A stretch of DNA of 64,000 bases, from NCBI GenBank assembly GCA_946699065.1, contig CAMPDV010000900.1, forward strand, positions 62,001 to 126,000, read 5' to 3'. Origin of the DNA: Loxodes magnus (lineage: Eukaryota; Ciliophora; Karyorelictea; Loxodida; Loxodidae). This document shows positions 1-62,703 of the stretch, piece after piece (position 1 is the first letter of the stretch; every line of letters starts with the position of its first letter). Position numbers and translations under genes: made by a program. The notes beneath the pieces are model-generated. The model was not told the origin of the DNA, made no database searches, and saw nothing but the letters and a program-made list of their open reading frames with translations.

Positions 1-2813
1 ATTATTTTGAAAACTTAATCTAATTTTAAAAATAAGATTCTATATATTAAGGAAGTTACTTAAGTAAATATAATTTTGTAGGTTATATTTACTCTTTAAG
101 ATATTATGGGAACTAATTTCTTACTTAAGATCAGTTGCAATCTATCTTAAATCACTCTTACTAAGGATTCAATTTTAGTTAAGCAGAACTTGTTTGTGGA
201 AGTTAATGTTACAAATGCTACGAAAAATAGAATAATAATTGCTTATAGTGCTATAAAGGATGAACCTTCGGAAGTAACTCTTGTTCTTGCTAATTAAAAT
301 TATCAATGGAAAACGAGTGCGTTTAGTAGTGTCCTTGAACTTAATAGGATAAGAATAATGATAAGTAGTGTGAATTTTGCAATAAAACTATATAAAATTG
401 TTTAATTTGCAAGCATGAAGGAGATATTTGCTTAAAGTGTGAAGAACTTTTTATCCTTTTCCAAGACTAATGTGTTGAAAGCTGTCCTAATGAGACTTAC
501 TATGTTTATAACAATACTTGCTTAAAGTGTGAAGATAGTATCCAGAACTGCTCAAGTTGTAGTATAGAAGGAGAAATATGTACTAAATGCCAAGATCCAT
601 ATTTTTTATTAGAAAACAAGTGTGTAATAGAATGTCCAAGTGAAGGATATTTTGCTTAAAATGGAATATGTCTAAAATGCAATGAAAAATAAAGAAACTG
701 CTCGAATTGTAGTGAAAATGGAGAAATATGCAGTTAGTGCGAAAATACTCTTCTTTTACAGGATAATAATTGTGTCGAAATTTGCACAGATAGCACTTAT
801 TTCATTTAAAGCGGAAAATGTATAAAATGCAATAATAAAATAGAAAATTGCCTAAGATGTTTCAGCGATGGATAAGTATGTAGTAAGTGTGAAAGTTCAT
901 ATCTATTATTTGAAAATACTTGTGTATAAAACTGTCCTAGCGATGAATTTTACATCTAAAATCAAGAATGCAAATTATGCAATTAGAATATTACAAACTG
1001 TTTCAGTTGTAGCACATTTGGATAGATTTGTACTTAATGTTAAGTTCCTTACCTTTCATTTGAAAATTAATGTATAGAAAGTTGTCCAAACTAAACTTAC
1101 TATAATAGGGATCGAGCCTGCTTAAAATGCATCGATAAAATAGAAGGCTGCTAGAATTGCAGCTAAGATGGTACTTAATGTCTTTAATGTTAAGATTAAT
1201 ATTTCTTACTAGAGAGCATTTGCATTTTAAATATCTCAAGTTAAGAATAGGGACTTAACTAAACCAATGAGGAAAATGAAGAACGTAACACAACTGAAGC
1301 AACTGAAGAAACTGATGAAACTGATGAAACTGATGACACATTGCTAGAAATTAAGAATTTTTCTAAGTTTAATTTATCCAATTCCGAAGAGCATTTAATC
1401 GAGTCCACTCATCATTTAGCAAATGTACTTACCTATAGTATTTTAGTATGCAGCTTAGTTTCTACAAGTGTTAATTACCAATCTAAGTCCTAATCATCAT
1501 CATCAGGAAATGTTTTGTAAGGAATTTTAACTACTTAGTTAATTTTCATGAATGCTTATATTGACGTTAGAAGAACTGACATTCTAGACTCTTATTACTA
1601 CGAGAATTACAAAAAGGATGGATTTAATGATAGTAAGTTTATAAGCCTTGATTCTGAAAAACTGTTAGTAGATAGAGAAATTTATGTCCTTCTAAGTTTT
1701 CGAAGTTACACTCTACTTTCTAATATCATAAATCCTCTTTTACTATTGTCGATTCTTTTTTCTATCGATGGAATTTTGAAAGCACTTGGACATTTCAAAT
1801 TTAAATAGCAAATAGAAAAGCTGAGAACTAAGTTTACAAATAGAAACTACATAACTATGATTTATAGCATTAAAGCCTTGTAAATAAATAATGCAATTAT
1901 GATGTAACTTGCTCACTTTAGTTTAAGTGACTTTTATGCAGCTTTTAATTCCTTTCTTGCCGTTATTGTCTTAGTAAGCTTTATTTAATTTTAGAACATC
2001 TAGATTTATTGTATTTTCAGCAGTTATTGGATCTCAAAAAAATATTTCTATTCTAAATAAAAATTTGAAGAGCTCAAGGAAAAAAAGTATGAAAAGTAGA
2101 TGCAGGAAATTAAGGATAAATATATCGTTTATTTTGACTAAAAGTTTTAGAATACTTTACCCTAAACTCTGCTATAGACATTTTTTCTAGTAAGAAGACT
2201 CTTTGTTTCTTTTGCAGCTATAATTCTCGTAGATTCATATATCCCTCAAATAATCATATATATAGCCAGTTGCTTTTTATGGTTGCTTTATATATAAATA
2301 TTTAAACCATATACAAGCAAAATAATATTTGCTTTAGAAGCTATTGGTGAGTTGCTGCTAATACCAATTTACTCCCTAAATTTCTATTTTAAAAATATTG
2401 AAAATAAAGTTTTGGACGAAAGCCAATAGAAATAGAAAGAAATACTGGGATGAGTTATTGTAATAGTATGCATTTCTTATGCTACTTTAAGTTTATTGGT
2501 TAACTTAATTTTAGTAATAGTTAATCTAGTTAGAGAGTACTAAAAAAATCGTAAAGCTAAAGTTAAAGCTGAAGACAGAAATGAAGAGTTACCATAATTA
2601 GGAATGACTGGCTTCAGTGAATCTTAGGTAATGAACAAAACTTTTACCAGTTTTATAGCCCAGCGAGACATAAAATTATTGGAAAGCGAAGAAAGAGGAA
2701 AGTAGGAACAAGCAGATAAGATTTTATGATTAAAAGAGACTTCAAGAGAAAATAAAAAAGATAATCCTAAGAAAAAAATATTAGCAAGGAGAAATTTGAG
2801 ACTAGAAGTTTGA
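1..2813 (+). CDS. Cys-rich repeat multi-pass surface protein, copy A (5' partial)
   Basis: The frame starting at base 3 stays open to a TGA at 2811 when TAA/TAG are Gln and internal TGA is Trp. The window edge cuts off the signal peptide and most of the lectin-like domain; alignment to copy D shows about 160 residues are missing. From base about 190 to 1250 it has repeats of roughly 45 residues with paired CxxC motifs, resembling furin-like or growth-factor-receptor Cys-rich repeats. An acidic Thr/Glu/Asp linker follows (1270-1340), then several hydrophobic membrane segments (about 1400-2560) and a charged tail. TGA is read as Trp at KG-W-TF, CP-W-TQ, LG-W-VI and IL-W-LK. A cell-surface protein is inferred from this architecture; the ligand is unknown. 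The C-terminal module matches copies B and E. Confidence 0.85.
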
Positions 2814-15327: not shown

Positions 15328-16833
15328 ATAAAAATTAATCACTCATGTTATTAATAACTAATTTAAGTTTCTTCAAGTTCTCTATTGGAATATCAATTTT
15401 ATATTTTATCAATGTTATCAATTCCTTGCTAGTAAAAATATTAAAATAAAAACACAAATATAATTTATTTCGATCTTAATTAAAATGATAAGAATTTTAA
15501 AATTCTTCTATCTAGTTTATTAATTAATTATTATGAGGTATATTTTAAAGAATAATCAATTTTAACTTTTTAAATTTTATAATTTTAGGTATTTTTATTC
15601 AAGATATATTTGGATATTTCCTTTAGAGAAATATCAATATAATATATGGGCTGATTTAGTTTTTTTTCTATTTTATTTTTGTATTTTTAAGTAATATTTA
15701 TTAAATAGCTTCGAAATAATTTTGAATAAATCAAATAAATAGATTTATTAATATTTCCTTAGCTCTTTGAAAATATTTGTATATAACTTTAATTTTAATA
15801 TATTTATTTTATTTAAGATAGTTACTTTATTATAAATTGATATATCCTATAATACATTTATTTATTTATAAAATTATTTAAATAAAGTATTTTTATTTCC
15901 TTCTAAGTATCTAATTTATGGTAAAACCTTTTTTATTAATTTAATAGGATAAATCTTCTTAAAATAGCTATCTAATTAATTTCTACTCTATATTCCTTTA
16001 TTTAAGTCTAAGCATACTTTCATCTTCATAATATTATAGCTTTTAGATATTTCTTATTAAGATTCTAAATGAATAAGCTTATCTCTTTGATATATTCTAA
16101 GAGCATTTATAATTAGTTATATTTAATTAGCACTAATATCATATTTTAGTGGCAAGAATTATTTATCAAATACTTTATCCTAAAAAATCATAATAAGTAT
16201 TATTTACTCCTTTGAGTATAATAGTGCTTTTATAAGTCTCAAAAATTAAATAAGTTGCTGAATAAGTTATATAAGCAAAAAATAAAATTATTAAAATTCT
16301 TAATTGAAATTGCTTTTATTATTTAACATTATGACTAATTTCTAGATCCATAGTATAATAATTCCTTCTAAAATTAAATAAAATCTTAGTTTTAATTTAT
16401 AATTAATAATCTATATGTCACTTTGCTTATAGAAATATATCTTAAGTTATAAAATTATCTATACTTTTATAACTAAATTATTTTTAATTCATATAGCTAG
16501 AAAATAAATCTACCAGTAGGATTAAAAGCAATGAGAATATATTGTTGATTGTTGCTTATTCTTCCATCTATTTGAAGATTTTATTTTAATATCTCATTTA
16601 TATCATATTTGACTACTCATTTTGTATCTTATTATACACTTTTAGTATAAGTAGAATATTAAATATGGGATTTAATCTCTAAGTATTCCTTTTATTTTAT
16701 GAGTTTGATAATTATACAAAGTAGATAAAGGATTGTTAAAAATACTTTGCATAATTTAAATCAAATAAAGCATAAATTAAATTTTCTTAAAATCAAATTT
16801 AAATGTGAAATGAAAGATTCTTTTGTTTATCTT
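15328..16833. repeat. 3' flank of copy B, homologous to flanks of A and E
   Basis: AT-rich, non-coding. It is an inverted copy of 2814-4220 and parallel to 52285-54575 minus the insertion there. Nothing coding seen. Confidence 0.65.
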
Positions 16834-16847
16834 TCAAACTTCTAGTT

Positions 16848-19772
16848 TCAAATTTCTCCTTGTTAATTTTTTTCCCTAGGATTGATATTTTCATTTTCTC
16901 TTGAAGTCTTTTTCAATCAGAAGATCTTATTTACTTGTTCCTACTTTCCTCTTTCTTCGCTCTCCAAAAATTTTATGTCTCGTTGGGTAATAAAACTTGT
17001 AATAGTTTTGTTTATTACCTAAGAATCGTTGAAACCAGTTATTCCTAATTATGGTAACCCTTCGTTTCTGTCTTCGGCTTGGACTTTAGCTTTACGATTT
17101 TTTTAGTACTCTTTAACTAGATTAACTATTACTAAAATTAAGTTAACCAATAAACTTAAAGTAGCATAAGAAATGCATACTATTACAATAACTCATCCCA
17201 GTATTTCTTTCTATTTCTATTGGCTTTCGTCCAAAACTTTATTTTCAATATTTTTAAAATAGAAATTTAGGGAGTAAATTGGTATTAGCAGCAACTCACC
17301 AATAGCTTCTAAAGCAAATATTATTTTGCTTGTATATGGTTTAAATATTTGTATATAAAGCAACCATAAAAAGCAAATGGCTATATATATGATTATTTGA
17401 GGGATATATGAATCTACGAGGATTATAGCTGCAAAAGAAACAAAGAGTCTTCTTGTTAGAAAAAGAGTCTAGAGCAGAGTTTAGGGTAAAGTATTCTAAA
17501 ATTTTTAGTCGAAATAAACGATATATTTATCCTTAATTTCTTGCATCTACTTTTCATACTTTTCTTCCTTGAGCTCTTCAAATTTTTATTTAGAATAGAA
17601 ATATTTTTTTGAGATCCAATAACTGCTGAAAATACAATAAATCTAGATGTTCTAAAATTAAATAAAGCTTACTAAGACAATAACTGCAAGAAAGGAATTA
17701 AAAGCTGCATAAAAGTCACTTAAACTAAAGTGAGCAAGTTACATCATAATTGCATTATTTATTTACAAGGCTTTAATGCTATAAATCATAGTTATGTAGT
17801 TTCTATTTGTAAACTTAGTTCTCAGCTTTTCTATTTGCTATTTAAATTTGAAATGTCCAAGTGCTTTCAAAATTCCATCGATAGAAAAAAGAATTGTCAA
17901 TAGTAAAAGAGGATTTATGATATTAGAAAGTAGAGTGTAACTTCGAAAACTTAGAAGGACATAAATTTCTCTATCTACTAACAGTTTTTCAGAATCAATG
18001 CTTTTAAACTTACTATCATTAAATCCATCCTTTTTGTAATTCTCGTAGTAATAAGAGTCTAGAATGTCAGTTCTTCTAACGTCAATATAAGCATTCATGA
18101 AAATTAACTAAGTAGTTAAAATTCCTTACAAAACATTTCCTGATGATGATGATTAGGATTTAGATTGGTAATTAACACTTGTAGAAACTAAGCTGCATAC
18201 TAAAATACTATAAGTAAGTACATTTGCTAAATGATGAGTGGACTCGATTAAATTCTCTTCAGAATTGGATAAATTAAACTTAGAAAAATTTTTAATTTCT
18301 AACAATGCTTCATCAGTTGCTTCAGTTGTGTTACGTTCTTCATTTTCCTCGTTGGTTTAGTTAAGTTACTATTCTTAACTTGAGTTATTTAAATTACAGA
18401 TGTTCTCTATTAAGATATAAGGTTCCTCACATTAAAGACATTAAGTTCCATCTTAGCTGCAGTTCTAGCAGCCTTTTATTTTAGCACTGCATTTTAAACA
18501 GGCTTTATTTTTAATATAGTAGGTTTAGTTTGGACAACTTTCTATGCAAGTATTATCTAGCAAGAGAAGATTATTTTCACACTAACTGCATATTTCTCCA
18601 TTTTCACTACAATTCGAGCAGTTTCTTTATTTTTCATTGCATTTTAAACATATTCCATTTTAAGCAAAATATCCTTCACTTGGACATTTTAAAACACACT
18701 TGTTTTCTAATAAAATAAAAGGATCTTGGCATTTAGTACATATTTCTCCTTCTATACTACAACTTAAGCAGTTTTGGATACTATCTTTACACTTTAAGCA
18801 AGTATTGTTATAAACATAGTAAGTCTCATTAGGACAGCTTTAAACGCATTAGTCTTGGAAAAGGTTAAAAGGTTCTTCACACTTTAAGCAAATATCTCCT
18901 TCTTGCTTGCAAAACAGACAATTTTATATAGTTTTATTGCAAAGTTCACACTACTTATCATTATTACTATCCTACTAGGTTCAAGGACACTACTAAACGC
19001 ACTCGTTTTCCATTGATAATTTTAATTAGCAAGAACAAGAGTTACTTCTGAAGGTTCATCCTTTATAGCACTATAAGCAATTATTATTCTATGTCTCGTA
19101 GCATTTGTAACATTAACTTCCGCAGACAAGTTCTGTTTAACTAAAATTGAATCCTTAGTAAGAGTGATTTAAGATAGATTGCAACTGATCTTAAGTAAGA
19201 AATTAGTCCCCATAATATCTTAAAGAGTAAATATAACCTACAAAATTTCATTTGCTTAAGTAACTTCCTTAATATATAGAATCTTATTTTTAAAATTAGA
19301 TTAAGTTTTAAAAATAATTCTAATAAGTTTTGAATTTATAATCCATTTAAGAATAGGTAGCAGAAATACTGAAATTACCTAGTTTATTCATAGAAAAAGC
19401 AACAAATACTCAATTATCTTGAACTAAATTTATACTAAAAGAAAATTGAGTTCAGTTTTCATTATATAATTGTTTTAGTCGAAAGATTGTTTATTTATCC
19501 TAAGCATTTTAAATATTCATTAACTCCAAAAAATTTGGTTAGTCGTTGAAGAGTTAAAATCAAGTATAGCCTATTTAGTTAGAATCAATCTTTAGTCATG
19601 CAGTCACACTAAATTAAGCTTAAGGATTTATTCCATATTAAGAAAACTTGTTACTTTTAGATGAGTTCTGCGTTATTTAAGTGGGAGTATTTGGAACCAA
19701 TATATCAAAAAAGCTAAGCTAAGATTGAATCTATAAGGCCAAGCAGCATAGAAGCATTATGAATATTTTCAT
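16848..19772 (-). CDS. Cys-rich repeat multi-pass surface protein, copy B
   Basis: Minus-strand ATG at 19772 follows a TTATAAA block shared with C-E. Signal peptide MKIFIMLLCCLALQ, lectin/LamG-like domain, CxxC repeat array, acidic linker and A-type membrane module. I followed it in frame from the start to the membrane module, with TGA as Trp (TA-W-LK, YT-W-F, DN-W-VF, KG-W-TF, CP-W-T). It has about 120 fewer residues in the Cys-rich array than copy A: the sequence jumps from a DNTC repeat to the last CPNQTYY repeat. Near the 3' end a 1-nt loss relative to A shifts the frame, so it would stop at TGA 16850 rather than at the homologous TGA at 16836. About 974 residues; probably still functional. 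Confidence 0.75.
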
Positions 19773-24670: not shown

Positions 24671-27600
24671 TCAGTTTAACTTGTTTTTCAGCTTTATTTT
24701 TTTCTTCTATTTCTGCTCTGGCATATCTTGATTTACTTCATTTGTTTTTGACTTGTTTCGCTTTTTCTTACTTCTTTTTTAACTTTTAACTTTTCTCATT
24801 TCCTCAAGATCTTGCTTCTTTTTTTGTTTCTGTAAAACGTCGAAATTAAGAAATAAATCATCACTAACTTTTTCTAAATTCTTTATTTAAAGTTAATTTT
24901 TTTATTGTTTCTCTTATCTCTAAGTGCTTTCTAGCCTTATACGACTAGAATTATTTAGTTACAAATTAATCTAAGTTTCATCAAAAACTTAAGTTCTTGT
25001 TATCTATTGTTACCTTTAAGATTATAAAGCTTCAATTGCTTAGTTACTATGATAAGTTTATTCTTCACTTTTAACTTTTTACTTAAGTTTATAGTGATTA
25101 ATAATACTTCTTATATTTAGGAAAATCATCCCTAAGGTTAAAATAAAAATAAAGATACTCTAAAAGTACATCACAAAATCTCCTAACTACTCTATACTTT
25201 TCTCATTTCTATGTTCTATTTTATCCTTATTCATTTCTATATCAAAGTAGATATTAGATAAATAAATTACCATCAGAAATACTTCAAATACACACTCTAA
25301 ATAATTCTGTTTTATTGTCTCGTATGGCTTATAAAATAGTAAAAACAAAATTTATAACAAGCAAGTTAAGCTTATTAGCATTACTTATGCTTAATAGTAA
25401 TCAACTAGAACTATTAATATGCATCCTAAAAATAAACGCCTAACTAGAAATAAAGGATAGTAAGCAGGATATTTAGTAGTCTAAAAGCCTTAGAAGAAAA
25501 TATTAAATTTACTTTTCTCTTTCTTTAGCTATTCTTCCTCTTCTTAAGTATTTACTCTATTTTACCAATTATAAAGGGTAAATAACTTTTTACAGCAAGC
25601 AAAAATGATGATAATTTAGAAAATCTGAGTATAAGAACTTACCATAAATATTAAAGCTAGCAATACGTTTAAAATATCTAATACTTTTCTAAAGTTTAAG
25701 TAGTAAATCTATAGGAAAATAGCGAAATTTAAGTTTAAAAATTAGCTTAAATAAATACCTATTACTAATTCATACTAGCATAAACTTCTAAGTTTCTATA
25801 AAAGCTTTGAATCTTTATTTTTGTAGCTTAAATACTAAATTAAGAAATTTAGTAATAAAACTATTAAAATTACTAGCAAGGAATTTAATGAGTTAGCTAT
25901 AAAAGCATAGGAAACGTATTTTAGTTATTTTCAGAATGGCTAATCTATTTTCATGATATTTCACTTAATTCCTAAAAAGTCTAAATTAAGGCTAAAAGGA
26001 AGCTTCAAGTTGAAGTTTTAGAAGTAATAATTGTTAAGATTAGCAGGCCTAAGAACATTTATATAAGCATTAAGCATTATCATTTATGTTATGAATGTCA
26101 CAAATCATAAATTTTAAAAGTTATTCGTTTATTATGAAGATCCTAAAATTACACTGGCAATTCCTAAGGCAAAGTTTAAATACTAGGATAAATATTGCAT
26201 AACTTAAGTGAAAGTAGCAATGGTTTTGTCAGCTTTAGACCATGAACTTTAAGAGAAATTTTCTTGTTAATTGACTGTACTATTTATATTTTGGGATTAT
26301 AAGCATTTATTATTTAAGAGCATGAAGTTTTAATAGCACTTTAAGCATTGAATATTAGAGTTATCTAATATCTAACATAAATCACAATTACTTATTTTAT
26401 GGCATGTACTGCAAGTTTCATTTATTCCACAAATAGGTTTGCAAGTATTATTATCATTCAATTCAAAATTATCTTTGCATTTTTGGCAATTATTCTCTCT
26501 ATCTTCGCATAATAAGCAGTTTATATCTGAACATTATTGTTAAATATCATTTTAAGCAGTTTAATTTATAGAAGAGTTATTTAAAATACAAATGTTCTCT
26601 AGTAAGAAATATTAATCTTAACATTAAAGACATTAAGTACCATCTTAGCTGCAATATTAGCAGCCTTCTATTTTAGCACTGCATTTTAAACAGGCTTTAT
26701 TTTTAATATAGTAAGTTTAGTTTGGACAACTTTCTATACATTAATTTTCAAAAGAAAGGTAAGGAATCTAGCATTAAGTACAAATCTATCCATTTATGCT
26801 ACAACTGAAACAATTTGTAATACTCTAATTGCATAATCTACATTCTTGGTTTTAGATGTAAAATTCATCGCTAGGACAGTTTTATACACAAGTATTTTCA
26901 AATACTAGATATTAATTTTTACACTAACTACATACTTATCCATCATTATTACAATTTGAACAGTTTTCTATTTTATTATTACATTTTATGCATTTTCCGC
27001 TTTAAATTAAATAAGTGCTATCTGTGCAAATTTCTACACAAGTATTATCCTGTAAAAGAAGAGTATTTTCGCACTAACTGCATATTTCTCCATTTTCACT
27101 ACAACTTGAGCAGTTTCTTTATTTGTCATTGCATTTTAGACATATGCCATTATAAGCAAAATATCCTTCACTTGGACATTTTATTACACACTCGTTTTCT
27201 AATAAAAAATATGGATCTTGGCATTTAGTACATATTTCTCCTTCTACACTACAATTTGAGCAATTCTGGATACTATCTTTACACTTTAAGCAAGTATAGT
27301 TATAAACATAGTAAGTTTCATTAGGACAGCTTTCAACACATTAATCTTGGAAAAGGTTAAAAGGTTCTTCACACTTTAAGCAAATATCTCCTTCTTGCTT
27401 GCAAAACAGACAATTTTATATAGTTTTATTGCAAAGTTCACACTACTAATCATTATTCTTATCCTATTAAGTTCAAGGACACTACTAAATGCACTCGTTT
27501 TCCATTGATAATTTTAATTAGCAAGAACAAGAGTTACTTCCGAAGGTTCATCCTTTATAGCACTATAAGCAATTATTATTCTATGTATCGAAGCATTTGT

Positions 27601-28270
27601 AGCATAAACTTCCACAGATAAGTTCACTTTAACTAAGAAAGAATCCTTAGTAAGAGTGATCTAAGATAGACTGCAATTGATCTTAAGTAAGAAATTAGTT
27701 CCCATAATATCTTAAAGAATAAATATAACCTACAAAATTATATTAACTTAAGAAACTTCCTTAATATATTGAATCTGTCTATGAAAATGTAATTAAGTTT
27801 TCAAAATAATTCTATAAAGTTTAGAATTTATAATCCATTTCAGAATAGGTAGCAGATAAACTGAAATTACCTTGGTTATTCATAGAAAAAGCAACAAATA
27901 TTCAATTATCTTAAACCAAATCTATTCTAAAAGAAAATTAAGTGAATTTTCATGTATAATATTGTCTTACACTAAAGAGAGTTAATTTGTTCTAAATATT
28001 TTATTAACTAAATAATTCCAAAAACTCATTTTAAGCCTTTTTGAATTGAAATCAAGCTCAACCTATTTAATTAGAATCAATTTTTAGTCATGCAGTCACA
28101 CTAAATTAAGTTTAAGTTTAGGGATGCACTCCATAATAAGAAAATGTGTTATTTTTAGATGAGCTCTGCGTTATTAAAGTGGGAGCATTCGGATCCAGTA
28201 TATCAGAAAAGCTAAGTTAAGATTGAATTTATAAGACCAAGCAGCATAGAACCATTATGGATATTTTCAT
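24671..28270 (-). CDS. Cys-rich repeat multi-pass surface protein, copy C
   Basis: ATG at 28270, TGA stop at 24673. The span is exactly 1200 codons, the same as copy D, of which it is an inverted paralogue. Domains: signal peptide (about 1-18), lectin/LamG-like domain (to about 215), CxxC repeats (about 215-655), multi-pass membrane region (about 690-1045) and a Lys/Gln-rich cytosolic tail. TGA reads as Trp at TA-W-LK, IG-W-A-W-FQ, YT-W-KF and DN-W-IF. The C-terminal half is the C/D type (ending KNKLN then TGA). The sections I checked are in frame. Probably a surface receptor or adhesin; the ligand is unknown. Confidence 0.8.
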
Positions 28271-29514
28271 TTTATAAGTAAAATAAATAATAATTATAAT
28301 TTAAGTTATTTTTAACTTAAATTTATACATTTTTTAATTATATTCAAATAAATCATTTAATTTCATAGTTTCTACCTGTCTAAATTGTATAATCAAAGCA
28401 TGCTTTTAATAATTCCACATTCCGAGTATGCACTTATTATCTTATGATACTCATTAAATGTATTTTATAATAATTTCTGCTTCATGCTCTATTTAATATC
28501 TCATAAAGATAATAAAAGCCAAAGTAAATTGATTACATCTAATTAAATTCTATTAGAATGTTTTTAAGGAAATTGTTTAGCTATAAATATTTAGTTTCTT
28601 CATCATTTTATTTATTTAAGTTGGCTTTATACATTTTAAGATTTTATCCTTAATTACCTGTATTTATTGAAACTAGCTTTTACTTTTTCCTTTTAATGTA
28701 GAGTACTTTATAAAGTTAGGAAAAATTAATAAACCTGCATTAATTTTAGTATTAACATTTTTCATAGCAAGAGATTTATAGGAACTAAAAATAACAATAG
28801 GATAGAAGTTTAAGAATTCTCAATTAAATTTGGTCAAACAGTCATAAAGATACAGTTCAATGATTTTAAATTAAACTATAGATCTAAAGCTTTATTAAAT
28901 ATACATAACTAACAAATAGAAAGTGTAAAAGGGATAATTTGATATATCTAATACCCTTATGAAGAAATAGAGCTTTATAAAATACAGAATCAACCTACAA
29001 GTGTAATATATTTTTATCTTTAGTGTTTATAATAAATTCTTTCAGCTTAATTTAGCTATCTAGATAGTTTTTTATCCTTATTTAAACGAAGTTTTCTTCA
29101 TTTTGCATATAAACTCAACATTAAAATCCCAAATTATCTATTTATCTCAATAGCTAGCTTTAACTTTTGCTTTAGTGAATTAAATATATTTTTAACTTAA
29201 TTAAGTCTAGCTACTCATAATACTTTTAGAATAATAAAATTCTATATCTAATATCTAAAGAAATTAACGTTAAGCTTTATCTTTTATTTAATTTAACTTT
29301 GATATAATTTACAATTATTAATTTTAGCCAATTGTTAGACTTAAAATTTTGGATTATTAGAAAGTTAGTTTCATATAAAATTTCCTTTGATTAAGCTATT
29401 ACTATATTTAACTTAAGCATTTTTAACTTTTCCTTTTATTTAAATTTTAAACTACCAATTTAATATAACTTAGATTGAAGGTTATATTCCATTTCAAAGC
29501 ATCTTCTATGTTTA
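28271..29514. repeat. 5' flank of copy C, near-identical to that of E
   Basis: About 1.24 kb of non-coding DNA that matches 58159-59396 with only a handful of differences, in the same orientation. Similarity stops abruptly after gcatcttctat. The flank is visibly better conserved than the adjacent coding sequence. A TTATAAA precedes the ATG. Confidence 0.8.
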
Positions 29515-32500: not shown

Positions 32501-33690
32501 ATTAATTAATTATTTTATGATAGAGATGAAAGGTAGCTATTGAAGAGTCTTACATAGTTATTTAGGTAAATAGGATGGAATTTTTAAATTAAATTAATAA
32601 TTAATACTTAAATTTAATTTTCTTAAATAGATGTATAGTATAAGAAATTAATGCATTAATTTAATTTAATTTATTAGGGTGTCTTTTAACTTGTAAAAAG
32701 GAAAATATTAAATAAAATAATTAAAATCCTAGAAATAAAAATGCTAGAGCTTATTCAAGAAAATTAGAAATATCATTTCACTTTCAATTAAAAAGCGCAT
32801 ATCAATTATCTTGCTCAAATTAACAAACACAGAATTATATAAATCAGAAATAAAAGTGAAGATTAATTTTAATTTGATTATGAGTTATAAAATAGCTAGA
32901 CAAGCTATAAAGCATCATATGAGAAACAAAATTAAATAAATTAGAAAAAAAGCTATGAAAAATCAAATAAAATTAAAGCTTATTAATGATATGAATAATT
33001 AATTAAAAATTTAATTTGAATTAGCTTTCTCACCTAAATAAAATAAAACATTTTACTAACTAAAGATAAATTGAAATTATCTATATATCTAAATTAGATT
33101 TAAAGCTTCAATTTAAAAAATAAAGAAAATATCTTACATTTGTGTGCATTCATCTTTTATCTTTTATTTCCAATAACCTTTATTAATTTATCAGGGATTC
33201 AATTCTCAATTTATGCTTTCTACACTTTCTATTAAAAAAGGACCTTAAATGGACAAATTTAGAGATTTTTAGATTGAATACTAAAAATTTAACAGATTGT
33301 CTATGATTATTTAATTTAAATAGCTTTCATAAGCTTTTATTTTTAATATTATTTTATTTCTATAAATCTATTTTATACAAAATTATTATTAATTAAATAA
33401 AGCTTTATATCTATAACCAAATTAATTAATTATTATCTATTAAAGGAATCTAGTTTAAGCTAATCTTGATCAAATACAAAATTTTAAGGTAAGGATTCTT
33501 ATAAACAATATTTTCTTAAAGTACTATGAAATTACTTAAAAATGTTAAAAATTACTTAAAAATCTATCTTAATAACTTGATATGATTTAAATTAGATAAA
33601 AATAAAATTATTAAAGCATTTATTTAATTAGGTGATAATTAAGCATTAATTGTAAATTAATAATCATAATTTATTGAAACAATAGATAAA
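29515..33690. other. AT-rich spacer between head-to-head genes C and D
   Basis: About 4.2 kb with no gene, RNA or repeat that I can support. It is rich in A/T runs and tetranucleotide stretches such as aaataaataaat near 30010. Random-looking frames only. Confidence 0.45.
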
Positions 33691-33853
33691 CTAATATATG
33701 CTTGAATGTAAAATAATTAAAAGCATGCTTTGATTATACAATTTTATAAGGTAGAAGCTATTAATTTAAATTATTTATTTGAATATAAATGAAAGATATA
33801 AGATTAAGCTTTAAAATAGCTTAATAATTATTTTTATTTATTTTAGTTATAAA

Positions 33854-36800
33854 ATGAAAATATTCATAATGGTTCTATGCTGCTTGGCCTTATAGATTCA
33901 ATCTTAGTTTAGTTTTTTTGATATACTGATTCCGAATACTCCCACTTAAATAACGCAGAGCTCATCTAAAAATAACACATTTTCTTATTATGGAATAAAT
34001 CTTTAAAATTTAATTTAATTTGGTGTGACTGCATGACTAAAAATTGATTCTAACTAAGTTGGCTTTGTTTGATTTCAACTCGACAATGCTTAAAATTATT
34101 TTTTGGAATTATCTAATAGTTAATAGATTTAAGATAAATTAGCATTCTTTAGTGTAAAACAATGCTATTCATGGAAATTTACTGAATTTTCTTTTAGTAT
34201 AGATTTAGTTCAAGATAATTGAGTATTTTTAGGCTTTTCTATGAATAACAAAGGCAATTTCAGTTTATCTGCTACCTATTCTTAAATGGATTATAAATTC
34301 AAAACTTATTAGAATTATTTTGAAAACTAAATCTAATTTTCATAGACAGATTTAATATATTAAGGAAGTTTCTTAAGTTAATTTAATTTTATAGGTTATA
34401 TTTACTCTTTAAGATATTATGGGAACTAATTTCTTACTTAAGATCAATTGCAATCTATCTTAGATCACTCTTACTAAGGATTCCTTCTTACTTAAAGCGA
34501 AATTATCTGCGGAAGTTAATGTTACAAATGCTACGATACATAGAATAATAATTGCTTATAGTGTTATAAAGGATGAACCTTCGGAAGTAACTCTTGTTCT
34601 TGCTAATTAAAATTATCAATGGAAAATGAATGCGTTTAGTAGTGTCCTTGAACTTAGTAGGATAGTAATAATGATAAGAAGTGCGAATTTTGCAATAAAA
34701 CTATATAAAATTGTCTATTTTGCAAGCAAGAAGGAAATATTTGCTTAAAGTGTGAAGAATCTTTTAATCTGTTCCAAAACCAATGCGTTGAAAGCTGTCC
34801 TAATGAAACTTACTATGTTTATAACTATACTTGCTTAAAGTGCGTAGATAGTATAGAGAACTGCTCAAGTTGTAGTATAGAAGGAGAAATATGTACTAAA
34901 TGCCAAGATCCTTTTGTTTTATTAGAAAACGAGTGTGTAACAAAATGTCCAAGTGAAGGATATTTTGCCTATAATGGCATATGTCTAAAATGCAATGATA
35001 AATAAAGAAACTGTTCAAGTTGTAGTGAAAATGGAGAAATATGCAGTTAGTGCGAAAATACTCTTCTTTTACAGGATAATACTTGTGTAGAAATTTGTAC
35101 AGACGATACTTATTTCATTTAAAGCGGAAAATGTATAAAATGTAATAATAAAATAGAAAACTGTTCAAATTGTAATAATGATGGATAAGTATGTAGTTAG
35201 TGTAAAAATTCATATCTATTATTTGAAAATACTTGCGTATTAAACTGTCCTAGCAATGAATTTTACATCTAAAACCTTGAATGTAAATTATGCAATTAGA
35301 GTATTACAAGGTGTTTCAGTTGCAGCATAAATGGATAGATTTGTACTTAATGCTAAATTCCTTACCTTTTTTTTGAAAATTAATGTATAGAAAGTTGTCC
35401 AAACTAAAATTACTTCATTAAAGATCAAGAATGTTTAAAATGCAGCGATAAAATAGAAGGTTGCTAGAACTGCAGCTAAGATGGTACTTAATGTCTTTAA
35501 TGTTAAGATTAATATTTCTTACTAGAGAACATTTGTATTTTAAATAACTCTTCTATAAATTAAACTGCTTAAAATGATACTTAACAATAATGTTCTGATA
35601 TAAACTGCTTATTATGCGAAGATATAGAGAGTTATTGTCAAAAATGCAAAGATAATTTTGAATTGAATGATAATAATACTTGCAAACCTATTTGTGGAAT
35701 AAATGAAACTTGCAGTACATGCTATAAAATAATTAACTGTGACCTATGCTATAAATTAGATAACTCTAATATTCAATGCTTAAAGTGTTATTAAAACTTC
35801 ATGCTCTTAAAAAATGAATGCTTATAATTCCAAAATATAAATAGTACAGACAGTTAACAAGAAAATTTCTCTTATAACTCATGGTCTAAAGCTGACTAGA
35901 TCATTACTACTTTCACTTAAGTTATGCAATATTTATCCTAGTATTTAAACTTTGCCTTAGGAATTACCAGTGTAATTTTAGAATCTTCATAATAAACAAA
36001 TAACTTTTAAAATTTATGGTTTCTGACATTCATAACATAAATGATAATGCTTAATGCTTATATAAATGCTCTTAGGCCTGCCAATCTTAACAACTATTAC
36101 TTCTAAAACTTCAACTTGAAACTTCCGTTTAATTTAAATTTAGACTTTTTAGGAATTAAGTGAAATATCATGAAAATAGATTTGCCATTCTGAAAATAAC
36201 TAAAATACGTTTCCTATGCTTTTATAGCTAACTCATTAAATTCCTTGCTAGTAATTTTAATAGTTTTACTACTAAATTTCTTAATTTAGTATTTAAGCTA
36301 TAAAAATAAAGATTCAAAGCTTTTATAGAAACTTAGAAGTTTATGCTAGTATGAACTAGTAATAGGTATTTATTTAAGCTAATTTTTAAACTTAAATTTC
36401 GCTATTTTCCTATAGATTTACTACTTAAACTTTAGAAAAGTATTAGATATTTTAAACGTATTGCTAGCTTTAATATTTATGGTAAGTTCTTATACTCAGA
36501 TTTTCTAAATTATCATCATTTTTGCTTGCTGTAAAAAGTTATTTACCCTTTATAATTGGTAAAATAGAGTAAATACTTAAGAAGAGGAAGAATAGCTAAA
36601 GAAAGAGAAAAGTAAATTTAATATTTTCTTCTAAGGCTTTTAGACTACTAAATATCCTGCTTACTATCCTTTATTTCTAGTTAGGCGTTTCTTTTTAGGA
36701 TGCATATTAATAGTTCTAGTTGATTACTATTAAGCATAAGTAATGCTAATAAGCTTAACTTGCTTGCTATAAATTTTGTTTTTACTATTTTATAAGCCAT

Positions 36801-37453
36801 ACGAGACAATAAAACAGAATTATTTAGAGTGTGTATTTGAAGTATTTCTGATGGTAATTTATTTATCTAATATCTACTTTGATATAGAAATGAATAAGGA
36901 TAAAATAGAACATAGAAATGAGAAAAGTATAGAGTAGTTAGGAGATTTTGTGATGTACTTTTAGAGTATCTTTATTTTTATTTTAACCTTAGGGATGATT
37001 TTCCTTAATATAAGAAGTATTATTAATCACTATAAACTTAAGTAAAAAGTTAAAAGTGAAGAATAAAGTTATCAGAGTAACTAAGCAATTGAAGTTTTAT
37101 AATCTTAAGGTTAATAATAAATATCAGGAACTTAAGTTTTTGATGAAACTTAGATTAATTTCTAACTAAATAATTCTAGTCGTATAAGGCTAGAAAGCAC
37201 TTAGAGATAAGAGAAATAATAAAAAAATTAACTTTAAATAAAGAATTTAGAAAAAGTTAGTGATGATTTATTTCTTAATTTCGACGTTTTACAGAAACAA
37301 AAAAAGAAGCAAGATCTTGAGGAAATGAGAAAAGTTAAAAGTTAAAAAAGAAGTAAGAAAAAGCGAAATAAGTCAAAAACAAATGAAGTAAATCAAGATA
37401 TGCCAGAGCAGAAATAGAAGAAAAAAATAAAGCTGAAAAACAAGTTAAACTGA
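33854..37453 (+). CDS. Cys-rich repeat multi-pass surface protein, copy D (complete)
   Basis: I translated this entirely by hand: ATG 33854, TGA 37451, 1199 residues, no frameshift. Residues 1-18 are a signal peptide (MKIFIMVLCCLALQIQSQ). About 20-215 resemble a LamG/lectin fold (DNWVFLGF, NKGNFSLSATY). About 215-655 hold roughly nine CxxC repeats (pattern CxxC..C..C..G.IC..C...CV..CP). About 690-1045 hold several membrane helices around an FLVRRFF segment, then a Gln/Lys-rich tail. Seven Trp are encoded by TGA and four by TGG, yet the gene also ends in TGA. The architecture resembles alveolate cysteine-repeat modular or TRP-like surface proteins; the function is not established. Confidence 0.85.
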
Positions 37454-38813
37454 AGAGAAATGAAATTTAATGTACTAAAATTAAGAAAAATAATTTAAAA
37501 TTAAGAGATAAAAGTCTTAAAATTAATTTATAAATTGACAAATAAAAATAATTTTTAATATAACAACATTATAAGGTATAATGGGTTTTTACTATTTTAT
37601 ATTTATCATATTATAAAAAATGTTTAAAGCAAGTAAAAATATTTTAGCTTAAATTAAATAAATAAATTTTAATATTTATATATAAGTTTTAATATATATT
37701 TAAAAATATTAAATATAAAATTATAAATAAATAGTTTAAAAAATGTTAGCTAAACATAATAATTAAAATATAAAGTGAATCAATAGAAGATAAATATAAT
37801 AATAATGTAAATTAATAATTAAAATTATTTATTAATAAGGATTAAAGAAATTATTAATGTCTAATTTTAAGATTAATATTTTAAAAGTTTTAACTTAACC
37901 TACTTTAGATCTTGGTGAATATTATAAATTTAATCAGAATTCATATGCTCAATCTTATTTATAATATTTCAATAACCTTAAAAATTTAAGATATTAAAAA
38001 AAAAAAAATTAATTAAACAATTATATAGAATTTATATATAATTTATATAGAATTTATATATAATTTATATATAATTTAAAAGGAATTTTAATTATTAAGA
38101 AGAATATATAAATAATTAAAATCTATGAAATTAAACTAATATGCATTAAACGAAATTATATTTATTTTTATAATATTTTATTTTATTAAATATAATATTA
38201 TCTAATTTATTTAAATTAAACATTTTTACTTAGATTTATGTTTATATTTTATGATTTATCTTTAAAATAAATTATTAGAAATTTGAATGAAAAAATACAA
38301 ATTACTTATATAAAAATTTTTATTTATTTTTTAATCTAAGTATATTTGTATGTTTGTAAAGATAGAATTATTTTTTAAGTAAATTTTCTTCTCATTTATT
38401 GTTTACAATATTTTCTTTGATAACCTTTAAATTGATGTTTATAAAAATATGGTCAGTCTGTAGAGAAATAAAAAAATTATTTGTTACATAGAAAGAAAAA
38501 AAATTAGCGAACTAAAATATGAAAGTAGAAGGAGGGAAGAAATAAAGTTAAAAAGAAATATGATATTTATAAGCTTAAATAAAATGAAGTATCTAATTTA
38601 ATCAAAAATTTCATATCATTTTATACTCATGATTGTATTTTTAAACTCTCATCATTAAATATTTTAATTATAAAAACTTTAAACTACAAAAAGAAAATGA
38701 ATATAAGCAAATGTTTAAATATATCTTTGTATAAAAGTTACAAAAAAATAAATTAAATAATTAAATATTTTCATATAAGTAATTTTGCTTATTTATATTA
38801 TATTATATATAAA
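37454..38813. repeat. 3' flank of copy D, right arm of the C/D inverted repeat
   Basis: Non-coding. It matches 23330-24670 as an inverted copy, up to a block with aagtaattttgcttattt near 38780. Includes (TATA)-rich microsatellite near 38030. The subsegment 38390-38630 recurs inverted at 40105-40330. Confidence 0.65.
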
Positions 38814-41554: not shown

Positions 41555-44500
41555 ATGTTTAGTATTGATGAAAAAGATGAAGATCCAACCAACATTCCTT
41601 CTTTTTTCAATCAGTAAGAAGAACATTCAAGTGACGGGATTGATAACTTAAATACCTCTATAAAAGAAGAGGGGTTTAACTAAAAGCATTAGAAAATGAA
41701 AGTTAATTAGGAGAAAAATAAAAGTATAAATGATAAAATCAAATAGAATAGTTATAATCATTATAGAAAAACCAGCACTGAAAACTTTGATAGTAGTAAT
41801 GTTTTTAAAATCAGAATTTAAGAATTAGGTGCTGAAGTTCTAACATAAGAAGAGTAAATATTAGTAAATAATGAAAAAGAGTAGTCTTAGTCTAAATTTG
41901 CTTAGTCCGATTAAAAATAAAGTAATGATGCTAGTGATCAGAAGAGAACATCCAGTATTTAAGAAACTAATACTTTTAATCAACAAAAAATAAAATTACA
42001 AAAAAACATCGAAAGTAGAAAGTCTATTGGCTATGAGGAATTCAGAAAAGGATTCGAAGCTGTAAACTAAGGATCTATTGAGTTAGCTTAACTTCACAAT
42101 AAAGCTAAAAGAATTAAAAAAATTGATTTTCAAAATATTGAGAAATACACTTTCTGTGAATGTTGCGGTCTTCCAGTTGAAGGTCAAAATTTTTCAATAA
42201 ATTGCAGTGTAGACGAATTTGGAAATTTTGGAGTAGGATTTAGTCTTTATTTCATATACTTCAAGTTTATAATTATTCTACTCTCTATTTCCTTTGTTCC
42301 CTTTGGATTCGCTCAATGAATCCTTTGCATATTGCAAAGCGAAGACAAGCATTAGAAAATTGACGATGAGTCAGTACTTTAACTTAAAAACAGTATAAAG
42401 TACTACTTAAATAGCTAGTCTGAAGGTTAAATTCCAATTTACTTTGAAATTTTTTAACTTTTGAACTTATTTTTAATGATGGCAGTAGTAATCATCTGCA
42501 AGAGATACTGCTAGAAAAAAATAATCGAAATTGATATTAAAATAGTTCAGCCAAAAGATTACGTAGTTTGACTAAAGCATCTTCCTAATGGAATAACAAA
42601 AAGCTAGTTTAAAGATTTTATTGAAAATTAAGGAAGAGCAGATGGTAAGAAATGCGAAGTTTCTAAGATAATATTCCCAGTTAAGCTATAAAATTATATG
42701 AAACTAGTCAAATAGTACAAGAAAGTAGAGCTTAAGAAAAATGCTATTGAGTAGGCGTAAAAAATAGACTCAAAGTACTAAAAAGTGATTTTGCTTTGAA
42801 ATGTAAAGAAAAAAGATTAGATTCAGAGTCTTATTAATAGAAATTGAACGAAATTTAGAATTTAATAAACGAAACTGAAAAGAAGGAGATTTAAATTGAA
42901 AACTTAACTACAGGATAGGCTTTCGTTACTTTAAGAACATAATCTGATGCTTACTATGTACATTAAAGATTTAGAGAAAATCCCCTAAAATAATGAGTTA
43001 AATGAGCTAAACAGATTTTAACAAGATGGTTTAAAGGTAAATAGTCAGAAACAAACTGAGAATTTGTTATTTCAATCGAACCTCCAGATCCTAGCGATAT
43101 CTATTGAGAGAACTTAGGTATAAATTTCATATAAAAGGTAAAATATACCTTTATGGTATGACTCTCAACAGTTTTCATTTTGGTAGGAGGAATTTATTTC
43201 CTTTATTACTTTAAATCAACTATGATACATAAAAATAAAGAAAACGTTATAAGTAATTGAACTGATGAGATTTAGCAAGCTATAGTAATTTTAATACTTA
43301 ACTAGCTTTTGAATACCATCCTTACCATGATAAGTGTGTTGTAAAAGCATGAAACCTGAACTAACTTTACTACAAGTGTTACTAGAAAAATAACCTTAGC
43401 ATAGAGTTTTGCCTCAGCTTTTATAATTTTATTGGTAGAGAGGAAAATAGAAGACTGGTTCGAAGACTGCAATCTTGTAAATGGTATTTGCCAACTTTTG
43501 ATTGCATTTGCTCTCATTCCTTTATTGAAGTTACTGATTAACTTTAAGTAAATGGTTAAAAAAGCGAAAAGACTTTATATGCGATTTAAAATTAACAATA
43601 CTTATCATTCTTAAGCTGAGTTAAATAGTTTGTACGAAGATGAGCCTTTTAATGTTATAAGTAGCTACTCTCATATAAATAAGACTCTAATAACTACTTT
43701 AGCTTATTCATCTGTTTTACCTTTTGCCTACGTCATCACTTTGATAGGATTCCTTATCAAATACTGAATAGATAAGTATACTTTTATTAGACGATGCAGC
43801 CGCTCTTTAAGTCTTGGGCCTCATTTGAACTAAAGTATGACAGAATTACTTTCTTACTATCTTCTGATTTACTCAGTTTCATCTTGGCTCTTCTATTATC
43901 ACTTAGGCTAAGAAATGCATTATTTCCTAATATTAGGGATTATGATTAGCTTTATCTATTTAATATTCCCTGAGAGTTAAATATTAAAAAAGTGCTAGGG
44001 AAATAAAGTCAAAAATTTTGACGAGAAATTGGATTCAGAGCAGCATTACTACGAGTAAATAGCTACTCAATTCTTTGAAGTAAGTCATTAGTTTAGGATT
44101 ATGACAGAGCTAATCCTGTTACAAGCGCAGAGGGATGAAATTGATTTTTCAATCAGCAAAGTAAGTTATTAAAATTCAGTTTAGCAGCTTAATGAGGATA
44201 GCTCTATTTAATAAATCAATGAGGCAAACAACTCACAGTTCTAGTAAATAATTAACTATACATTTAACAAAGAATCTATAAAGAAAAGATTCACTAAAAT
44301 GGCTGGCTAAAATATATTGCCAGATTTGAAAGCATTATTTACAGAGGAAAAGTTTAAGAATTTGAAGAAGTAAATAAGCATAAAGAAGGAATATCTAAAT
44401 AAGCTTAAATAGCTTGATGAAATTATAGTAAGAAAATAATAGCAAAATATGCAAAACACTTAAGGAAATAATATTTAATTTGAAAAAAATATAAAATACC

Positions 44501-53494: not shown

Positions 53495-54575
53495 AAATCA
53501 TTTTAATAGATTTATTATTATAATCTCCTTCTATTAATTCCTTTAAATATCTTTATATAGCTTTAAGTTTACATATGTTGATATAATTTAAAATAGTTAG
53601 CTTATTGATAGATTGATATATCCTACAATGGATTTATTTTTAATGAAGGAATTTAAATAAGTTATTTTAATTTCCTTCTAAGTATCTAATTGATGGTAAA
53701 GCCTTTTATATCAATTTAATAGTATAAATCTTAATCAAATAGCCTTCTAATTAAATTTACTCTTCTTCCTTTATTTAATTTCAGAATGCTTTCATATTAA
53801 TATACTAAGATAGTTGTTAGATATTTATTATTAAGATTCTAGTTTAATGGGCTTAATTATATTAATTAAAACAATACCAAAGTATAGTCAGAAGAACTGT
53901 ATATCAATTATTTTATCTAAATAAAAATAAGTACTATTTACTCCTTTGAGTATAAATATGCTTTTATAGGATTAAAGAACTAAATCACTTGCTAATCAAG
54001 TTATATAGATAAGAAATTTAATTCTCCTAGCTCTTAAACAAACTTGCTTTTATTATTTAAGATTATGCGCTTATTTCTAAATTTTAATAGCCATATTATA
54101 ATAATTCCTTCTGAAATTAAATAAAATATAGCTTTAATTTATAATCATATATATCACTTTGCTTATAGAAATATATCTTAAGTTATAAAATTATCTATAC
54201 TTTTATAACTACAACTATTAAACATTTATATTAAATCACTTAGAAAATAAATCTACCAGAAGAATTAAAAGCAATGAGAATATATTGCTGCTTGCTGTTT
54301 ATTTATCTATCTATTTGAAGATTGTATTTTAATATCTCATTTATATCATATTTTACTACTCATTTTGTATCTTATTATACACTTTTAGTATAAGTAGAAT
54401 ATTAAATTTAGGATTTAATCTCTAAGTATTCCTTTTATTTTATAAGTTTGATAACTATATAAAATAGATAAAGGCTGCTTAAAATACTTTGTATAATTAA
54501 AATCAGATAAAGCATAAATTAAATTTATTTTAAATCAAATTTAAATGTGAAATGAAAGAGTATTTTGCTTATCAT
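53495..54575. repeat. Proximal 3' flank of copy E
   Basis: AT-rich, non-coding, matching 15770-16833 (B) in direct and 2814-3900 (A) in inverted orientation. Begins with the right target-site duplication. Confidence 0.6.
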
Positions 54576-57500
54576 TCAAACTTCTAGTCTCAAATTTCTC
54601 CTTGTTAATTTTTTTTTCTTAGGATTATCTTTTTTATTTTCTCTTGAAGTTTCTTTTAATCAGAAAATATTATCTGCTTGTTACTGCTTTCTTCTTTCTT
54701 CACTCTCCAATAATTTTATGTCTCGCTGGGCTATAAAACTGGTAATAGTTTTGTTTATTATCTAAGATTCGTTAAAACCAGTTATTCCTAATTATGGTAA
54801 CTCTTCATTTTTGTCTTCAATTTTAGCTTTAGCTTTACGATTTTTTTAGTACTCTTTAACTAGATTAACTATTACTAAAATTAAGTTAACCAATAAACTT
54901 AAAGTAGCATAAGAAATGCATACTATTACAATAACTCATCCCAGTATTTCTTTCTACTTCAATTGGCTTTCGTCCAAAGTTTTATTTTCAATATTTTTAA
55001 AATAGAAATTAAAGAAGTAAATTGGTACTAGCAGTAACTCCCCAATAGCTTCTAAAATTAATATTATTTTGCTTGTATATGGTTTAAATATTTATATATA
55101 AAGCAACCATAAAAAGCAACTGGCTATATATATGATTATTTGAGGGATATATGAATTTACGAGGATTATAGCTGCAAAAGAAATAAAGAGTCTTCTTGTT
55201 AGAAAAAGAGTCTAGAACAAAGTTTAGGGTAAAGTATTCTAAAACTTTTAGTCGAAATAAACGATATATTTATCCTTGATTTCCTGCATCTACTTTTCAT
55301 ACTTTTCTTCCTTGAGCTCTTCAAATTTTTATTTAGAATAGAAATATTTTTTTGAGATCTAATAACTGCTGAAAATACAATAAATCTAGATGTTCTAAAA
55401 TTAAATAAAGCTTACTAAGACAATAACTGCAAGAAAGGAATTAAAAGCTGCATAAAAGTCACTTAAACTAAAGTGAGCAAGTTACATCATAATTGCATTA
55501 TTTATTTACAAGGCTTTAATGCTATAAATCATAGTTATTTAGTTTCTATTTGTAAACTTAGTTCTCAGCTTTTCTATTTGCTATTTAAATTTGAAATATC
55601 CGAGTGCTTTCAAAATTCCATCGATAGACAAAAGAATTGTCAATAGTAAAAGGGGATTTATGATATTAGAAAGCAGAGTGTAACTTCGAAAACTTAGGAG
55701 GACATAAACTTCTCTATCTACTAACAGTTTTTCAGAATCAAGGCTTTTAAACTTGCTATCATTAAATCCATCCTTTTTGTAATTCTCGTAGTAATAAGCA
55801 TCTAGAATGTCAGTTCTTCTAACGTCAATATAAGCATTCATGAAAATTAACTAAGTAGTTAAAATTCCTTGCAAAACATTTCCTGATGATGATGATTAGG
55901 ACTTAGATTGGTAATTAACACTTGTAGAAATCAAGCTGCATACTAAAATACTATAGGTAAGTACATTTGTTAAATGATGAGTGGATTCGATTAAATACTC
56001 TTCGGAATTGGATAAATTAAACTTAGAAAAATTCTTTATTTCTAGCAATGTGTCATCAGTTTCATCAGTTTCATCAGTTTCTTCAGTTTCTTCAGTTGCT
56101 TCAGTTGTGTTACGTTCTACCTTTCCCTCGTTGGTTTAGTTAATTTACTATTCTTAACTTGAGTTATTTAAAATACAGATGTTCTCTATTAAAATATATG
56201 GTTCCTCACAGTAAATACATTTAGTACCATTTTAGCTGCAGCTCTAGCAGCCTTCTATTTTAGCACTGCATTTTAAACAAGCTTTATTTTTATTATAGTA
56301 AGTTTAGTTTGGACAACTTTCTATACATTAATTTTCAAAAGAAAGGTAAGGAACTTAACATTAAATACAAATTTATCCAAATGTGCTACAACTGAAACAG
56401 TTTATAATACTCTAATTGCATAATTTGCATTCTTGGCTTTAGATGTAAAATTCATTGCTAGGACAGTTTAATACACAAGTATTTTCAAATACTAGATATG
56501 AATTTTTACACTAACTACATATTTATCCCTCACTGGAACATCTTAGGCAGTTTTCTATTTTATTATTGCATTTTATACATTTTCCGCTTTAAATGAAATA
56601 AGTGCTATCTTTACAATTTTCTACACAAGTATTATCCTGCAAAAGAAGAGTATTTTCACACTAATTGCATATTTCTCCATTTTCACTACAACTTGAACAG
56701 TTTCTCCATTTATCATTGCATTTTAGACATATGTCATTATAGGCAAAATATCCTTCACTTGGACATTTTGTTACACACTCGTTTTCTAATAAAAAATATG
56801 GATCTTGGCATTTAGTACATATTTCTCCTTCTACACTACAATTTGAGCAATTTTCTATTTTATTATTGCATTTTATACATTTTCCGCTTTAAATGAAATA
56901 AGTATCGTCTGTGCAAATTTCTACACAAGCATTATCCTATAATAGAAGAGTATTTTCACACTAATTGCATATTTCTCCATTTTCACTACAACTTGAGCAG
57001 TTTCTCCATTTATCATTACATTTTAAACATATTCCATTTTAAGTAAAATATCCTTCATTTGGACATTTTGTTACACACTCGTTTTCTAATAAAACATAAG
57101 GATCTTGGCATTTAGTACATATTTCTCCTTCTATACTACAATTTGAGCAGTTCTGGATACTATCTTCGCACTTTAAGCATGTATAGTTATAAACATAGTA
57201 AGTTTCATTAGGACAGCTTTCAACACATTAGTCTTGGAAAAGGATAAAAGGTTCTTCACACTTTAAACAAATATCTCCTTCTTGTTTGCAAAATAGACAA
57301 TTTGATATAGTTTTATTGCAAAATTCACACTACTTATCATTATTACTATCCTATTAAATTCAAGGACACTACTAAACGCACTCGTTTTCCATTGATAATT
57401 TTAATTAGCAAGAACAAGAGTTACTTCCGAAGGTTCATCCTTTATAGCACTATAAGCAATTATTATTCTATATTTAGTAGCATTTGTAGCATAAACTTCC

Positions 57501-58158
57501 GCAGATAAGTTCGGTTTAACTAAGAAGGAACCCTTAGTAAGAGTGATCTAAGATAGACTACAATTGATCTTAAGTAAGAAATTAGTTCCCATAATATCTT
57601 AAAGAGTAAATATAACCTACAAAATTATATTAGCTTAAGAAACTTCCTTAATATATTAAATCTGTCTATGAAAATTAGATTTAGTTTTCAAAATAATTCT
57701 AATAAGTTTAGAATTTATAATCCATTTAAGAATAGGTAGCAGATAAACTGAAATTACCTAGGTTATTCATAGAAAAAGCAGCAAATACTCAATTATCTTG
57801 AACTAAATCTATTCTAAAAGAAAATTCAGTAAAATTTCCATGAATACCATTGTTTTACACCAAAGAGAGTTAATTTGTTGTTAATATTTTATCAATTAAA
57901 TAATTCCAATAAATTTAAATTATCCTTTTAGAATTGAAATCAAAAATAACCTATTTAGTTAGAATCAATCTTTAGTCATACAGTCACACTAAATTAAGTT
58001 TAAGTTTAAGGATTTATTCCATAATAAGAAAATGTGTTACTTTTAGATGAGCTCTGCGTTATTAAAGTGGGAGTATTTGGAACCAATATATCAGAAAAGC
58101 TAAGTTAAGATTGAATTTATAAGGCCAAGCAGCATAGAACCATTATGAATATTTTCAT
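54576..58158 (-). pseudogene. Cys-rich repeat multi-pass surface protein, copy E (one frameshift)
   Basis: ATG 58158, homologous stop TGA 54578. The span is a multiple of three plus one. An extra T in a T-run at about 57831-57837 shifts the frame in the lectin-like domain just after SWKF; otherwise the frame appears intact. Signal peptide, LamG-like domain, expanded CxxC array and A-type membrane module are all present. A 300-bp unit (100 residues, two Cys repeats) is tandemly duplicated at 56549-56848 and 56849-57148. The acidic linker has extra ETDETD-type repeats. It may be a recent pseudogene, or the T may be an assembly error. TGA is Trp at several conserved sites. Confidence 0.75.
56549..57148 (-). 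repeat. Tandem 300-bp duplication inside the copy E Cys-rich array
   Basis: The block starting gttttctattttattattg recurs at a distance of exactly 300 bases, with few differences, keeping the frame. Confidence 0.75.
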
Positions 58159-60831: not shown

Positions 60832-61412
60832 GTTTTAATTTAAGTGTTTGAAGGAGAAAGATTGATGACAAAAGACAAACATTTATTAGGAAAATTTAAT
60901 TTAGATGGAATACCTCCTGCAACTAGAGGAGTACCACAGATCGAAGTAACTTTCGATATTGATGCAAATGGTATAATGAATGTGACAGCGGTTGATAAAG
61001 CAACAAGTAAAACAAATAAAATAACAATAACAAATGAGAAAGGAAGATTGAGTAAATAAGAAATCGAAAAGATGATATAAGAAGCAGAAAAGTACAAAGC
61101 TCAAGATGCAAGTTAAAAGGAAGTTATAGAAGCGAAAAATGGATTAGAATCATATATTTATAGAATTCACTTGAAGAAGAAAAAATTCGTGATAAGATAG
61201 ATGGAAATGATAAGTAGACATTGATTAAAAAGATAGAAGAGACAAAGAAATGGTTGGAAGTGAATTAGAATGGTAGAAAAGAAGATTATGAAGGAAAATA
61301 GAAAGAAATAGAAAGTATAGTGAATCCAATAATGATGAAAGTTTGTTAGGCAGATGGAAATAATATGGCAGGTGATAAAAAAGGAGGACCAACAGTAGAA
61401 GAAGTAGATTGA
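60832..61412 (+). pseudogene. HSP70 C-terminal half (truncated, frameshifted)
   Basis: The frame gives [13 protein letters not shown], then [17 protein letters not shown] and [13 protein letters not shown], the HSP70 substrate-binding domain. After a frameshift near 61160 come the lid region (SLEEEKIRDKI) and GGPTVEEVD followed by TGA at 61410. EEVD marks a cytosolic HSP70, and it fixes TGA as a true terminator. Everything before about residue 420 of a normal HSP70 is missing. Gln codons are mostly TAA/TAG, so it belongs to this genome. Confidence 0.85.
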
Positions 61413-61471
61413 TAAACTATGTCTATTTAAATATTTATATATAATATATCTAGTATATTTTAAAATATTTA

Positions 61472-61478
61472 TAAAAAA
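61472..61478 (-). terminator. Pol III T-run after tRNA-His
   Basis: Six T on the minus strand just 3' of the discriminator A. Confidence 0.8.

Positions 61479-61684: not shown

Positions 61685-62703
<1,019 letters not shown>

Follow-up and report, generated by a model that had tools for sequence, protein, structure and literature searches.

Among genetic codes that lack a dedicated stop codon, the closest to the one considered here is the karyorelict code of Loxodes and Parduczia (table 27), in which TAA and TAG likewise encode Gln and TGA likewise encodes Trp inside genes and terminates them at their ends. In the code of Condylostoma magnum (table 28), each of the three stop codons can be sense within a gene, as here, but TAA and TAG serve as stops too. 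Passages on that code refer to its stop codons collectively (PMC4967479). For the macronuclear genome of Loxodes magnus, parts of the published description give table 27, in which UGA either encodes Trp or terminates and is the only stop; they also describe short 3' UTRs and a scarcity of UGA and UAA as coding triplets ahead of the stop (PMC11441545). Elsewhere, passages of the work on Blastocrithidia describe a code in which all three stops are likewise reassigned, TGA is read as Trp through a short-stem tRNA-Trp and residue 70 of eRF1 is altered; however, UAA and UAG encode Glu there, UAA is the stop, and residue 70 is Gly rather than the Ala found here (PMC12153298). In the parasitic dinoflagellate Amoebophrya sp. 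ex Karlodinium veneficum, UAA and UAG are probably Gln and UGA is probably Trp, as in our case, and the tRNA-Trp has a 4-bp stem, whereas its eRF1 carries RIKS where ours carries NIKS, according to portions of the relevant report (PMC12005148). What makes codes without a dedicated stop of broader interest is that they show how context can decide where translation ends; such a case has been described for Loxodes before.

The window analysed here, a stretch of 64,000 nucleotides numbered from its first letter, compares closely with the first of these systems. We hold with high confidence that it is nuclear DNA read by table 27, TAA and TAG being Gln and TGA being Trp within genes but a stop where they end, and that it comes very probably from a karyorelict, Loxodes magnus; no difference from table 27 was found among the codon meanings and ends compared. 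This code is already published for Loxodes and is not new. What the window contributes is a duplicated gene pair, D and C, with silent TGG-TGA swaps, and what the genome contributes is an eRF1 whose catalytic GGQ residue depends on a reassigned TAA. Our own evidence is sequence-based, and consists of the codon meanings, the conservation between copies and the TGA ends of the few genes checked. The features are collected in Table 1.

Table 1. Features of the window that bear on the reading of TAA, TAG and TGA.
Feature	Position	Strand	Remarks
Gene A	3..2813	+	5' part lies before the window; end is TGA 2811-2813 or TGA 2727-2729
CCHC-like motifs	5841-5882, 12568-12609, 52928-52969	- (all)	Six-frame motif search
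Paralogue B region	15929..19772	-	Limits are those of similarity and may take in non-coding DNA; frame lost towards 3' end
Fragment of D family	near 21973-22239		Similarity
Gene C, near copy of D	24671..28270	-	90% amino acid identity; ends in TGA
Gene D	33854..37453	+	1199 aa, table 27 translation
Gene D TGA codon 61, as Trp	34034..34036	+	TGA likewise in B, C, E
Gene D TGA codon 73, as Trp	34070..34072	+	TGA likewise in B, C, E
Gene D TGA codon 123, as Trp	34220..34222	+	TGA likewise in B, C, E
Gene D TGA codon 241, as Trp	34574..34576	+	TGA likewise in A, B, C, E
Gene D TGA codon 266, as Trp	34649..34651	+	TGA likewise in A, B, C, E
Gene D TGA codon 770, as Trp	36161..36163	+	Common to C only; A, B, E have TCT
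Gene D TGA codon 780, as Trp	36191..36193	+	Common to C only; A, B, E have TAT
Gene D terminal TGA	37451..37453	+	Placed by loss of the frame common with C
TGA at W of DPSDIYW, OSCA/TMEM63-like gene	43105..43107	+	PDB alignment
Paralogue E region	53969..58158	-	Limits are those of similarity and may take in non-coding DNA; frame shift at about 57832
TGA ending HSP70 EEVD tail	61410..61412	+	Motif EEVD, then TGA
HSP70 piece	61831..62277	+	4/5 TAA/TAG opposite Gln in the alignment shown

Translation with table 27 reproduces the 1199-residue gene D of the first-pass annotation, with its seven internal TGA codons as Trp and its TAA and TAG codons (70 and 29 in frame, respectively) as Gln. As this table has no dedicated stop codon, every frame is open, so that the open frame of gene D is no evidence in itself. 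Its TGA content is more informative: the frame holds 8 TGA, whereas 1000 dinucleotide shuffles averaged 25.8 and never had fewer than 12, and its longest run free of TGA, at 503 codons, is longer than any in the shuffles (436 at most). The remaining five frames of the region hold 12 to 38 TGA each. Were TGA taken as a stop, the longest open pieces in the frame of gene D would be this run and the last 419 codons, which are likewise free of TGA.

Gene D belongs to a small family duplicated within the window and has no special standing in the code. It shares a single frame with C over all 1199 codons, with a dN/dS of 0.36; the values for the other copies are 0.37 for A, 0.42 for B, and for E 0.96 before its frame change and 0.47 after it. 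Judging by sequence, B and E may be pseudogenes, and because both are frameshifted their TGAs are weaker evidence. The earlier claim that the Trp-coding TGAs of D recur in A, B, C and E stands for five of the seven (codons 61, 73, 123, 241 and 266), the last two of these being the only ones spanned by A, which begins before the window; it fails for codons 770 and 780, whose restriction to D and C we count against the main reading. We count likewise a TTT codon of D that is TGA in C, and two TTT codons of D that are TGA in B.

The reassignment of TAA and TAG to Gln was found in the D-C pair, in eRF1 and in the HSP70 piece. Among 112 positions with TAA or TAG (TAR) in the comparison of D with C, 90 are TAR in both, 4 pair TAR with CAR, and 18 are other combinations. 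A search of the assembly for the eRF1 N-domain family gave three candidates, of which L010 and L011 are eRF1 genes and L009 holds a pelota gene. Where eRF1 could be aligned with the human protein, 8 of 18 TAR codons in L010 and 8 of 19 in L011 lie opposite Gln, among them that of the GGQ glutamine, which is spelled TAA; the remaining TAR codons face K, S, E, V or T, and in L011 L as well. In the HSP70 piece, the columns where TAR meets Gln include both Gln of NDSQRQ.

For TGA as Trp, genes outside the D family offer six internal codons in the PDB alignments shown. The OSCA/TMEM63-like gene, which has a PHM7_cyt match above cut-off (E 4.4e-8; Pfam scan in three frames), bears out the claim of a TGA at the conserved W of DPSDIYW: this codon, residue 69, lies opposite Trp in three of three OSCA alignments. 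Sixteen codons upstream, the TGA of residue 53 has Trp opposite it in both alignments that reach this position, the third not extending so far, and the TGA of residue 87 faces A or H. These alignments are weak (E 0.1 to 0.44 with the whole sequence), and a PDB search with 1000 residues of the region gave no match. A further TGA at residue 120, opposite Trp, was left out of the count, because the second, non-significant stretches that contain it reach about 2 bits and do not follow the first in a consistent order. Elsewhere in the assembly, on contig C2, a kynurenine aminotransferase fragment (L009; E 2.8e-54) has TGA at residue 109, the second Trp of TGWKxGW, where Trp stands in all five alignments shown, to kynurenine aminotransferases I and III, of 45 hits; its residue 158 TGA faces N or a gap. 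The pelota gene lies on this locus as well, and its TGA of residue 292 faces N, F or A in three alignments shown.

A check suggested at the outset was whether internal TGAs fall on variable, non-Trp columns, and here the outcome is divided: three of the six lie opposite Trp, and three lie on variable columns opposite other residues, which we count against the main reading, whilst in none of these alignments does a TGA meet a column in which some other residue is conserved. Since the paralogue and Gln evidence is independent of this count, the even split leaves our confidence in table 27 unchanged. The TGAs reported within CCHC motifs were recovered in all three matches, at the second position in two and after the His in one.

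Every gene end that we checked is a TGA, and none is a TAA or TAG, in a small sample of five (D, C, the HSP70 tail and the two eRF1 genes) that amounts to three independent cases, because D and C, like the eRF1 pair, are copies. For D and C the end was set from the loss of their common frame 32-37 nt past the TGA, where it breaks off on account of a one-base length difference, and for HSP70 from the EEVD tail, which we take to be the HSP70 ending. The first-pass annotation had genes A, C and D and the HSP70 EEVD remnant ending in TGA, which holds for C, D and HSP70 but is less clear for A: near its end (2727-2813) two in-frame TGAs lie 28 codons apart, E has TGA at both places, and B shifts frame between them. 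As for a depletion of TGA over the roughly 20 codons before the stop, the few genes at hand give a clean stretch in D and these spaced TGAs in A. The eRF1 genes contain no internal TGA, and both have another in-frame TGA three codons past the stop (L010:2764-2775, L011:2764-2775), placed as if it were a back-up stop.

These ends bear directly on the choice between table 27 and table 28, which the first-pass annotation had left side by side; the former is upheld, and the latter gives way on the absence of TAA or TAG from the five ends. In a code of the Condylostoma type each of TAA, TAG and TGA could be sense or stop, and all three are indeed sense in the window, but TGA alone occupies the ends, and the parts of the genome report that concern us name UGA as the sole stop of Loxodes (PMC11441545), so that this code seems very improbable here. 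We give practically no credence to the proposal that TGA is a true stop only (table 6), which would make D and its relatives pseudogenes or the product of sequencing errors. The frameshifts in B and E would suit it, as would the HSP70 copy, whose matches fall in three successive frames and reach no further than about position 311 of the 599-position HSP70 model; against this, D and C hold one frame under the dN/dS given above, their TGA positions are conserved among copies, TGA swaps with TGG between them, and TGA lies opposite Trp in the aminotransferase and OSCA-like genes.

The same swaps speak to the identity of the residue. Gene D is rich in Cys, with 79 Cys codons, which might recommend Cys, as in Euplotes, or selenocysteine as the meaning of TGA. 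Yet none of these 79 codons faces TGA in C, though TGC and TGT swap 14 times, whereas two of the four TGG codons of D, at codons 107 and 722, are TGA in C. Trp is also what lies opposite TGA in solved relatives. The TGG/TGA swaps, in the absence of any between Cys codons and TGA, agree with Trp as the meaning of TGA and tell against Cys, and we regard another residue as having next to no chance of being correct.

Returning to table 27, how could one codon be read in two ways? Termination would be favoured near transcript ends, as is thought in parts of the literature (PMC4967479; PMC11441545). Inside genes, TGA would be decoded as Trp by a short-stemmed tRNA-Trp(CCA), the likely decoder; indeed, a tRNA-Trp(CCA) with a 4-bp anticodon stem has been reported for Loxodes by others, in a passage of a wider account (PMC12005148). 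Our one strict pattern search for tRNA-Trp gave no match, and of 42,786 tRNA candidates 63 places were scored, the eight loci that we fetched all being tRNA-Lys(UUU). On the side of the release factor, eRF1 L010 differs from the human protein by E55A, T58R, S60Q, S70A and Y125F, the L011 translation reads alike at these residues, and the motif is NIKS. The Gly that Blastocrithidia has at residue 70 is associated with readthrough of UGA in the relevant part of that study (PMC12153298); by analogy, Ala at position 70 might act in Loxodes as Gly does there. That release-factor changes, and not the tRNA alone, set the balance between sense and stop in this ciliate is an idea that we put forward as an unlikely one. 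On this idea, the changed residues of both eRF1 genes, the TAA in their GGQ motif, their lack of internal TGA and the second TGA past the stop would go with a weak termination that has a back-up.

Several minor observations concern the window itself. By eye, gene D has a signal-peptide-like start, Cys-rich repeats and a hydrophobic C-terminal half, and the family would apparently consist of membrane proteins. A Pfam scan of gene D gave no family at E 0.01, a PDB search with its N-terminal part gave no match, and AlphaFold, run on that part with C and B as the alignment, returned a mean pLDDT of 33.3 and no usable model. The N-terminal part of paralogue B (15800-19772, minus strand) has a weak Laminin_G_3 match (E 0.0013), whose 19.3 bits fall short of the 27.6 set as curated cut-off. 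Calling genes in the window by codon usage recovered parts of genes only and was set aside. C and D lie within an inverted duplication of about 5.5 kb (23375-28941 and 33207-38776), in which six-frame similarity reaches past the genes. Two tRNA genes are present, tRNA-Lys(CUU) at 48191-48263 on the plus strand and tRNA-His(GUG) at 61479-61551 on the minus strand. Finally, in the HSP70 region (61299-62625), the EEVD tail precedes an HSP70 start by about 275 bases, an arrangement that, on the sequence, is likely a broken tandem pair.
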